64,000 nt of DNA from Halorussus marinus (GTDB lineage Archaea; Halobacteriota; Halobacteria; Halobacteriales; Haladaptataceae), in NCBI RefSeq assembly GCF_004765795.1, contig NZ_SBIV01000004.1, positions 62,001-126,000 on the forward strand. Direction: 5' to 3'. The stretch's first letter is position 1, and the number at the start of each line of letters is the position of its first letter. Of the stretch, positions 2,313-16,440 are shown in pieces. A program made the position numbers and the translations under genes. The notes below the pieces were generated by a model. It saw only the letters and a list, made by a program, of their open reading frames with translations, made no database searches and was not told the origin of the DNA.

Positions 2313-3899
2313 ATGAAGGGAGTGATTCTAGCGGCTGGTATCGGGTCCCGTCTACGGCCGCTCACGCTTCACGAGCCGAAAAGCTGTGTTACCGTCGCCG
2401 GCGAGCCGGTGCTCGGCCGACAGTTGCGCGCGTTCGACGACGCCGGCGTGAGCGACGTGACCGTCGTCGCGGGCTACCTCGCCGACGAGACGCGGGCGCG
2501 CTGTGAGGCCGTCTCGGTCGACCGGCCCGACCTCGAGGTGAGCGTCGTCGAGAGCGAGGTGTTCGCCAACACCGACAACATGTACTCGCTGTCGCTCGCC
2601 CGCGAGGCGGTCGCCGGCGAGCCGTTCGTGCTCGCCAACGGCGACGTGGCCTTCGAGCCCGACCTGCTCGCGGACCTCGTCGACGCCGACGCCGACAGCG
2701 CGGTGGCGTGCGACCGCGCGACCTTCTCCGAGGAGGCGATGAAGGTCACCGTCGACGACCGCGGGCTGGTGAGCCACATCGACAAGGCGGTCCCGGAGGA
2801 GGTGGCCCACGGCGTCTCGACCGACGTCTACCGGTTTTCCGCATCGTTCTCCTCGATGCTGTTCGACGAGATCGCCCGGACCATCGACCGGGAGGGCGAC
2901 TTCGGCGACTGGACCGAGGCCGCCATCGACCGACTCGTCCGCGACCGCGACCACGACCTGGCGACCGCCGACGTCACCGGCCGCGAGTGGGTGGAGATCG
3001 ACGACTTCGCGGACCTGACCGAGGCCGACCTCCGATTTGCCGGGCTGTCTGCCCTCGACGAGAAGGAGGCGGTGTTCTTCGACCTCGACGGGACGCTCTA
3101 CCTCGACGACGACCTCGTGGCGGGCGCCCGCGAACTCGTCGAGTTGCTCCGCGACCGCGGGGTCGCGGTGTACTTCCTCTCGAACAACTCCTCGGGGTGG
3201 AAAGACGAGTACGCGAGCAAGCTGACGAAGCTGGGCGTCCCAGCCGACCCAGACAGCGTGTTGCTCTCGACCGACGGGGTGATCCAGAACCTCGTGGAGG
3301 CCGACCCCGGCGAGGTGTTCGTCCTCGGAACCGACGCGATGCGCGAGGCGGTGGCGGCGGCGGGCGTCTCGGTCGGCGACGACGACCCCGACACCGTGGT
3401 GGTGGGCTTCGACACCGAACTCACCTACGAGAAGGCCCGGCGCGCGACGCTCGCGATTCGGGACGGCGCGACCTTCCTGCTGGCCCATCCGGACGACGTC
3501 TGCCCGACCGGCGAGGGGTTCGTGCCCGACTGTGGCGCCATCGGCGCGATGATCGGGCGCGCGACCGACCGGTCGCCCGAGCGGGTGTTCGGCAAGCCGA
3601 ACGCCGAGATGCTCGACCACGTCCTCGACGCCGAGGGGTACGCCCCGGCGGAGGTCGCGGTCGTCGGCGACCGACTGGCGACCGACGTGGCGCTCGCAGA
3701 GAGCGTCGGGTGCGAGTCGGTGTGTGTGCTCACCGGCGACGCAACCCGGGTCGAGGTCGAGACCAGCGACATCGAGCCCACGCTCGTCGCCCCGAGCGTG
3801 GCCGACCTGACCCGGTTCGTCGCGGCCGACACGTCCGCCGAGCGGGGCGACGCCGACGCGCCGGTGCCGTCGGTCGAGGGCGGTGAAACCGGTGACTGA
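2313..3899 (+). CDS. Bifunctional sugar/choline-type nucleotidyltransferase fused to HAD-IIA phosphatase
   Basis: A 528-residue two-domain protein. Residues 1 to about 235 are a nucleotidyltransferase: MKGVILAAGIGSRLRPLT (nucleotide loop), K in EPKSCV, and FANTDNMYSLSLAR, which resembles LicC-type CTP:phosphocholine and sugar-1-phosphate enzymes. LANGDVAFEPD supplies the metal Asp. From about residue 250 a HAD-IIA (NagD/glycerol-phosphate phosphatase-like) domain follows: D257 and D259 in FFDLDGTLY, SNNSS (motif II), FGKPN (motif III Lys) and VGDRLATD (motif IV). Both active sites look intact. ATG 2313 is chosen because it starts the canonical first strand; an in-frame ATG at 2278 would add residues of no use. 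The 3' end overlaps the next gene by 17 nt, so translation is probably coupled. Confidence 0.85.
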   Translation: MKGVILAAGIGSRLRPLTLHEPKSCVTVAGEPVLGRQLRAFDDAGVSDVTVVAGYLADETRARCEAVSVDRPDLEVSVVESEVFANTDNMYSLSLAREAVAGEPFVLANGDVAFEPDLLADLVDADADSAVACDRATFSEEAMKVTVDDRGLVSHIDKAVPEEVAHGVSTDVYRFSASFSSMLFDEIARTIDREGDFGDWTEAAIDRLVRDRDHDLATADVTGREWVEIDDFADLTEADLRFAGLSALDEKEAVFFDLDGTLYLDDDLVAGARELVELLRDRGVAVYFLSNNSSGWKDEYASKLTKLGVPADPDSVLLSTDGVIQNLVEADPGEVFVLGTDAMREAVAAAGVSVGDDDPDTVVVGFDTELTYEKARRATLAIRDGATFLLAHPDDVCPTGEGFVPDCGAIGAMIGRATDRSPERVFGKPNAEMLDHVLDAEGYAPAEVAVVGDRLATDVALAESVGCESVCVLTGDATRVEVETSDIEPTLVAPSVADLTRFVAADTSAERGDADAPVPSVEGGETGD

Positions 3900-15087: not shown

Positions 15088-15549
15088 ATGTCACTCGACG
15101 TCGACGCGCCGTCGCCGCCGTCGCTCTCCACGAACGTGGACGCCTCCGAGTACGAGGACGCCGACGTGCAGGGCGACGACTACCGCCGCGACGAGCTCGA
15201 AGCGTACCTCGAAGACGGCGCGTGGATCGACGCGTTCGACGAGTGGGCCGCCCACACCGACCTGACCGACGAGGAGTACGCCATCGTCCGGGACCTCGAA
15301 ATGTTCGCGGAGTACGACTTCTTCTGGGACTCGTTCGCCGACCGGGTGGGCTATCACGCCCCCGGAATCCCCGAGGACTGGAAAGAGCGGAGCTACCACC
15401 CGGAGATCGACTCGTGGAACATCGTCTCGGGCATCAACGCCGCGATGACCGAGTTCGGCCAGATCGTCTGCGACGTGCTCGAAGACGCCTACATCGACTG
15501 GGAGGGCGAGTACGAGGCCCCCGACGACCTGCCGGACTTCGAGGTCTAA
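15088..15549 (+). CDS. Haloarchaeal conserved hypothetical protein
   Basis: A 153-residue very acidic soluble protein rich in Asp, Glu, Trp and Tyr, with segments such as DEWAAHTDLTDEEYAIV, FFWDSFADRVGYHAPG and EDAYIDWEGEYEAPDDLPDFEV. I do not recognise a family, and see no signal peptide, membrane helix or metal motif beyond scattered acidic residues. ATG 15088 is chosen because the upstream in-frame codons are basic and low in acidic residues. The stop overlaps the stop of the convergent gene by 3 nt. Probably cytosolic; function unknown. Confidence 0.75.
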   Translation: MSLDVDAPSPPSLSTNVDASEYEDADVQGDDYRRDELEAYLEDGAWIDAFDEWAAHTDLTDEEYAIVRDLEMFAEYDFFWDSFADRVGYHAPGIPEDWKERSYHPEIDSWNIVSGINAAMTEFGQIVCDVLEDAYIDWEGEYEAPDDLPDFEV

Positions 15550-16406
15550 TCCTCTGCGGGCACCGCGTTCGCGAGGCCCGCGGCCCGGTCGCCGCCCGCG
15601 GTGACGACGCACCGCCACGCGCCGTCGCCGACGGGACGCGCGTCGGTGACCGCCACGGTGCGCTCGGGGCGGTGACGGAGCAGTTCGACGGCCAGCGGGA
15701 GGGTGGGTAGCCGCCGGCCCGTCAGATCGAAGGCGTACTCGTCGAGGGTCACCGTCCACGAGCGGTCGGGACCGCCTTCGGGGTCGACCGGCCGTGCGTC
15801 GATCGCGTAGTCGTCGACCAGCGAGAGCCCGTCGAAGCGGTCGAGGGTCGCGGCGACCGGGTCCTCGCTCGACCGGGGCCCGAGCCGGTCGGCCGCGGCA
15901 CGGAGCACCTCGTCCTGTCGGTCGGGGCCGAGACGGTCGTCGATCTCGGTCGCCATGGTGGCGAGCAACACCAGACAGAGGTCGTCGGGATCGACGACCG
16001 CCTCCGCCGAGTGGAGGTAGGCGTCCATCGCCGCGCGCTCGACCGCCCGCTCGTCGAGCGCCGTCAGGGCCTCGAACACCGCGGCCGCCACGTCGTGACA
16101 GAAGTCCAGCGTGGTCCCCGCGCCGGTCGACGCCGACCGCTCGACGATCGGGGAGTCGCGCAGACCCGGGTCCTCGGAGACGACCAGATCGTAACACGGG
16201 AGCCGGGGATCGTACTGCCTGAGCTCCGCCCGGTAGGCCGCCGCGGCCCGCGCGGCCTCCTCTGCGGTCGCCCGGTCGGGGAAGCGCTTGCCCGCCACCG
16301 GGACCGGGCGCTCGCCCGTCCGGGCGCAGGCGACGTAGTAGCGCCCGCCGTCCTCGTGGTCGTCGGCGATGCGTTCGCGCAGGTCTCTGAGGGTGGTGCC
16401 GACCAT
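15546..16406 (-). CDS. Haloarchaeal conserved protein of unknown function under an iron-box promoter
   Basis: A 286-residue soluble acidic protein. The N-terminus (YYVACARTGERPVPVAGKRFPDRATAEEAARAAAAYRAELRQYDP) looks like a small alpha/beta domain; the middle (LDFCHDVAAAVFEALTALDERAVERAAMDAYLHSAEAV) is helical. No enzyme motif is recognised. The key clue is regulatory: a perfect 16-bp palindrome of DtxR/IdeR type lies directly upstream of the ATG, between the TATA box and the start. The gene is therefore probably repressed by Fe (or Mn) through a DtxR-family protein. Its role in metal homeostasis is inference from that site only. Confidence 0.75.
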   Translation of the reverse strand: MVGTTLRDLRERIADDHEDGGRYYVACARTGERPVPVAGKRFPDRATAEEAARAAAAYRAELRQYDPRLPCYDLVVSEDPGLRDSPIVERSASTGAGTTLDFCHDVAAAVFEALTALDERAVERAAMDAYLHSAEAVVDPDDLCLVLLATMATEIDDRLGPDRQDEVLRAAADRLGPRSSEDPVAATLDRFDGLSLVDDYAIDARPVDPEGGPDRSWTVTLDEYAFDLTGRRLPTLPLAVELLRHRPERTVAVTDARPVGDGAWRCVVTAGGDRAAGLANAVPAED

Positions 16407-16422
16407 TTTAGGCTAGCCTAAA
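16407..16422. promoter_or_regulatory. DtxR/IdeR-type iron-box operator (perfect 16-bp palindrome)
   Basis: TTTAGGCTAGCCTAAA reads the same on both strands and resembles the iron-box core TTAGG...CCTAA bound by DtxR, IdeR and haloarchaeal relatives. It abuts the ATG at 16406 and covers the predicted start of a leaderless transcript. Confidence 0.75.
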
Positions 16423-16429
16423 CAAAGGA

Positions 16430-16440
16430 GCGATAAATAC
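16430..16440. promoter_or_regulatory. TATA box for the iron-box gene (-), possibly shared with the FKBP gene (+)
   Basis: The minus strand reads gtatttatcgc, centred 29 nt from the ATG at 16406. On the plus strand the same bases (gcgataaatac) could drive the FKBP gene with a leader of about 30 nt. Confidence 0.55.

Follow-up and report, generated by a model that had tools for sequence, protein, structure and literature searches.

DtxR-type operators and the metal-dependent regulators of haloarchaea

The operator of IdeR and DtxR was described as a 19-bp sequence, TTAGGTTAGSCTAACCTAA, and has been redefined as a 14-bp consensus for the binding of one dimer, TTAGGNNNNCCTAA, which was proposed from crystal structures in combination with EMSA (PMC8464063). 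The DtxR-family regulators named in haloarchaea include Idr1 and Idr2 of Halobacterium, as well as TroR (HVO_0863), Idr and SirR of Haloferax volcanii (PMC11349517). The locus considered here lies in Halorussus marinus, within a 64,000-nt stretch of DNA that was analysed as a whole (the window). It shares with the IdeR/DtxR operators an identical 14-bp core, a position over a promoter, a genome-wide association with iron genes and the presence of encoded DtxR-family proteins, whereas the Halorussus sites, known from sequence, are mostly single 14-bp sites, or tandems spaced by about 36 nt, and not the overlapping 19-bp sites of two dimers. As in the described haloarchaeal DtxR regulons, a salt-loving archaeon here combines several regulators of the DtxR family with a regulon of siderophore and suf genes. 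The motif of Haloferax TroR lies about 100 nt upstream, whereas the box described here adjoins the ATG. The operator type and the haloarchaeal DtxR regulons are known; the protein encoded behind this box, which matches the Pfam families DUF7552 (PF24422) and DUF7551 (PF24420) over the full length of both domains, is named neither by DUF7551 nor by DUF7552 as a regulon member, and is unreported as a broadly conserved one, in the literature that could be searched, a scope outside which the primary haloarchaeal regulon papers lie. Both families carry no function, and the link to an iron regulon is what is added here.

The operator and promoter of the DUF7552-DUF7551 gene

The features of the locus, in window coordinates, are as follows.

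15546-16406, minus strand: DUF7552-DUF7551 gene, 286 aa (ORF, Pfam, homologues in 163 of 292 genomes)
16170-16394, minus strand: DUF7552 domain, residues 5-79, with near-invariant C27 (Pfam PF24422, E=1.2e-32; conservation)
15567-16109, minus strand: DUF7551 domain, residues 100-280, with near-invariant C103, H104 and C144 (Pfam PF24420, E=6.7e-62; conservation; AlphaFold)
16407-16422, unstranded: DtxR-type iron box, TTTAGGCTAGCCTAAA (sequence, genome-wide excess, footprint in six Halorussus species)
16433-16439, minus strand: TATA-like element TATTTAT (sequence; an AT-rich element occupies the same place in other Halorussus)

The iron box is a perfect 16-bp palindrome that contains an exact match to the 14-bp DtxR/IdeR consensus and adjoins the ATG of the 286-residue ORF (16406-16404, minus strand), while the centre of TATTTAT lies 30 nt from the A of that ATG, from which we infer a leaderless transcript. 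The exact core occurs once in the window, and allowing up to three mismatches yields one further match, at position 3588 (0.17 expected). The palindrome touching the start codon, its place between that codon and a TATA box, and the lack of a second copy in the window had all been put forward in the original prediction, and each holds. Phylogenetic footprinting of six Halorussus promoters showed that the upstream region has diverged and that mainly the TATA-like element and TTTAGGnnnnCCTAAAATG have been kept.

The iron box across the genome

Scanning of the genome (3.76 Mb in 37 contigs) returned 19 exact copies of TTAGGNNNNCCTAA, against 0.09 expected under a first-order Markov model of the window, and 10 copies with one mismatch. 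An excess of exact over one-mismatch sites is the reverse of what chance would produce, and points to a motif beyond chance. The exact sites fall between genes, in promoter regions as defined by the gene predictions made in this analysis. They precede genes for four siderophore-binding lipoproteins of the Peripla_BP_2 family and one FecE ATPase, a FecCD permease located behind a TrxR-like flavoprotein, an Fe(III)-type ABC operon (binding protein, permease and ATPase), sufCBD, and a DUF5059-plastocyanin lipoprotein. Boxes also precede genes with no obvious role in iron metabolism, among them a gluconate-2-dehydrogenase/GMC pair and a dehydrogenase of the GSDH type, as well as a stretch close to a RIO kinase. 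The motif is therefore rare, rather than frequent and unrelated to metals, and most of its copies stand at promoters for iron uptake or Fe-S functions.

The DUF7552 family itself recurs within this set. An operon encoding DUF7552, DUF7260 and again DUF7552 (L021 4667-6426, from G000:C1:719666) is preceded by two iron boxes 20 nt apart, and each of the genome's three DUF7552 proteins is encoded behind a box at its own gene or operon. Among standalone DUF7552 loci, seven of ten carry an exact box no more than 200 nt ahead of the gene. Sites pooled from other genomes gave the consensus TTTAGGYNNRCCTAAA. Where boxes occur in tandem, at many loci of other genomes (L074-L193), they are 36 nt apart from start to start in 29 of 40 cases, a spacing which suggests two dimers bound at a fixed helical phase.

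Conservation of the box and of the gene neighbourhood

A DUF7551 domain scoring above the family cut-off was found in 163 of the 292 sampled genomes of the class, that is, in more than half. Of 71 loci identified by HMM search (the window included), 31 have an exact box at most 450 nt ahead of the start codon, many of them exactly at -15. In a set of 80 named haloarchaeal loci, the exact box was directly upstream, over the same 450 nt, in 48, further upstream in 22, often in a siderophore-transport operon, and missing in 10; four scrambled palindromes gave zero matches in the same approximately 1 Mb of sequence. Of the 292 genomes, 65 contain the string TTAGGNNNNCCTAAAATG, with a number of its sites at DUF7551 genes; its reversed control is present in none of the genomes listed. 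Within Halorussus, the string is present in all four genomes having a DUF7551 gene and in neither of the two without it. The assignment of the palindrome as a DtxR/IdeR-type site, made originally from its sequence, is thus strengthened by the exact consensus, by the iron-gene promoters that share it and by its retention before haloarchaeal orthologues. The metal-dependent repression predicted at the same time is supported by the regulon and by conservation, metal dependence and regulator identity being inferences from the sequence.

Nine of the ten box-less loci (L164, L173, L176, L181, L182, L185, L187, L189 and L193) form one supported Haloferax/Halogeometricum clade, in which the gene adjoins a TrxR-like gene; the tenth is L178. 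The DUF7552-DUF7551 protein is therefore not always under iron control, and the clade hints that it may form, with the TrxR-like flavoprotein, a functional pair outside that control.

The neighbours found in the retrieved flanks of the 80 named loci include DUF7260 (30 loci), a siderophore-binding protein (25), a TrxR-like flavoprotein (21), FecE (16), FecCD (10), DpsA (10), a small CxxC protein (9) and a short DtxR protein (8). In several genera the DUF7552-DUF7551 gene lies inside a siderophore ABC operon, and DUF7260, besides its place in the DUF7552-DUF7260-DUF7552 operon, is a frequent neighbour in other genera as well.

Domains and predicted fold of the protein

The matches to PF24422 (112.3 bits against a cut-off of 27) and PF24420 (209.3 bits against 52.6) are strong, and residues C27, C103, H104 and C144 are at least 99% conserved among 70 homologues. 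The named homologue set agrees on these residues, although it was retrieved with a search pattern including FCH and is not independent for C103-H104. C27 is also conserved in standalone DUF7552 proteins, and may therefore act separately from C103, H104 and C144. Searches of NCBIfam, PHROGs and PDB sequences gave zero matches for the 286-residue protein, and no homologue of known function emerged from Pfam searches over the 70 homologues or from sequence and fold searches; with two DUF families as its domains, the protein keeps the unassigned function it was originally given. The ferric-siderophore reductases FhuF and SIP were also considered, and no such Pfam family appeared among the matches of the 70 homologues at E≤5.

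AlphaFold modelled the full protein with a pLDDT of 90.3 and DUF7551 alone with a pLDDT of 94.3 and a pTM of 0.91, the domain being predicted as five helices followed by a beta-beta-alpha-beta-beta arrangement. Foldseek matched the model to no PDB or viral structure at E≤0.001. BcsD ranked top for the DUF7551 model, with a best E of 0.0055 and TM of about 0.3-0.4, and one homologue had a weak Pfam match to Cellsynth_D (E 0.0084); with E never below 0.0055, kinship with BcsD was set aside, as judged from the fold search alone. The highest Foldseek probability, 0.94, was obtained with Nostoc H-NOX (E=0.02, TM 0.42). The H-NOX/V4R homology prompted by this match was unconfirmed by comparison of profiles from alignments made in this analysis, in which DUF7551 scored an hhalign probability of 0.1% against H-NOX and 1.0% against V4R, whereas the positive control, H-NOX against V4R, reached 94.5%. 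The proximal His by which H-NOX binds haem, in the helix joining strands 2 and 3, has no conserved counterpart in DUF7551, whose sole near-invariant His, H104, lies in the first helix of the domain. The predicted resemblance to H-NOX/V4R is a lead and not a sign of membership.

Proposed regulation and function

The DUF7552-DUF7551 gene is very probably under the control of the iron box and part of the iron-starvation response. The best overall explanation, to which a probability of about 0.8 may be given, is that the site is an operator of a haloarchaeal DtxR-family iron regulon, placed before the gene of a cytosolic protein that most likely acts after siderophore or haem import. In the presence of iron, one dimer of a metal-loaded (Fe(II)) DtxR-family repressor, of which the 140-aa protein encoded beside sufCBD is the best candidate, would occupy 16407-16422. 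Since the site takes up the whole space from the TATA element to the ATG of the presumed leaderless transcript, binding would block initiation, by preventing the loading of the initiation complex or of RNA polymerase. Once iron becomes scarce, the gene would be derepressed together with those for siderophore ABC uptake, Suf and related functions. Taken jointly, the identity of the repressor, its dependence on iron and its repressing action are considered highly likely. A 14-bp site for one dimer, set between TATA and a leaderless start codon, or a tandem at about 36 nt, would offer a simple model for metal-dependent repression in archaea, and the conserved operator together with operon membership makes this a well-supported and directly testable uncharacterised iron-starvation gene.

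To our knowledge, no route for the intracellular release of iron from siderophores has been established in haloarchaea. The product would be a soluble cytosolic protein that binds or processes an iron-loaded ligand after the import of ferric siderophore (or haem), its conserved Cys and His residues serving as a site for metal or for redox chemistry, in some lineages beside a TrxR-like flavoprotein. That its cytosolic role after import concerns iron, siderophore or haem is a guess, which is rather unlikely to be right as it stands. The fuller proposal, in which DUF7551 would be a new intracellular iron-acquisition protein of haloarchaea, with a fold without match among solved structures, and C103-H104, C144 and perhaps C27 would serve to bind iron, haem or ferric siderophore or to reduce it, with a TrxR-like partner in some lineages, is unlikely when taken as a whole. 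Instead of handling iron, the protein may be an adaptor, regulatory or structural, that is expressed when iron is limiting; a ligand sensor would be one example. Such a role, which is less likely than not, would suit the weak resemblance of the predicted fold to H-NOX, a sensor domain, and to BcsD, a structural octamer, the recurrence of DUF7552 as a standalone protein and the zero enzymatic motifs recognised, whereas the frequent placement of the gene inside siderophore-uptake operons and beside a flavoprotein, and the near-invariant Cys and His residues, argue against it, though not decisively.

Candidate regulator and metal specificity

Three proteins encoded in the genome have strong Fe_dep_repress matches. 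The 140-aa DtxR protein (C1:342815) is encoded just downstream of sufCBD, whose promoter has an iron box. The suf genes of Haloferax lie near HVO_0863, which encodes TroR, and on this synteny the 140-aa protein is probably the TroR orthologue. A further DtxR protein, of 240 aa (C1:347938), is of the FeoA type, with MntR-like NCBIfam scores that are below cut-off. Just upstream of its gene lies a hybrid site, TTAGGCTCGTCTAA (G000:C1:348135-348148; L025 4136-4149), and a ZnuA-type ABC operon is preceded by the site TTAGACTAGTCTAA (G000:C3:195902-195915; L027); together, these suggest that the genome has another box of Mn/Zn type, akin to the iron box.

DtxR-family proteins vary in metal specificity, and manganese can be the signal. 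The box before the DUF7552-DUF7551 gene could accordingly answer mainly to manganese, or to zinc, through the FeoA-domain regulator (SirR/MntR-like) rather than to iron. The variable specificity of the family and the presence of the 240-aa protein with its MntR-like scores speak for this, but TTAGGNNNNCCTAA marks siderophore, FecCD and suf genes, and the sites at the ZnuA-type operon and at the FeoA-type regulator differ from it, as would be expected if Mn/Zn had a separate box. Control by manganese or zinc is consequently regarded as quite unlikely.

Control of the divergent FKBP gene by the operator, whether of that gene by itself or through a common switch with the DUF gene, the latter having been allowed in the original prediction, is very unlikely. 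The box is intergenic, about 73 nt from the FKBP ATG, and the AT-rich element can be read as TATA on either strand, but in many genera the box accompanies the DUF gene with no FKBP gene adjacent, in many of them at a fixed -15 from its ATG, whereas an FKBP neighbour was found only in Halorussus and is missing even there at two loci that keep the box. The FKBP gene is not supported on these grounds as the regulated gene, and probably has no share in the site. That the palindrome is a chance sequence is ruled out by its roughly 200-fold excess in the genome, by the conservation of its position and footprint, and by the scrambled controls.

Other boxed genes

Elsewhere in the genome, a gene resembling those for reversibly glycosylated polypeptides (L020 4161-5356) has its own iron box near the ATG and no obvious role in iron metabolism. 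At L032 13203-13393, an iron box was observed before the gene of a 55-aa CxxC protein (MAAGTQSRRD...) that adjoins dpsA, and this small protein, again boxed and adjoining dpsA, recurs in several other genera.
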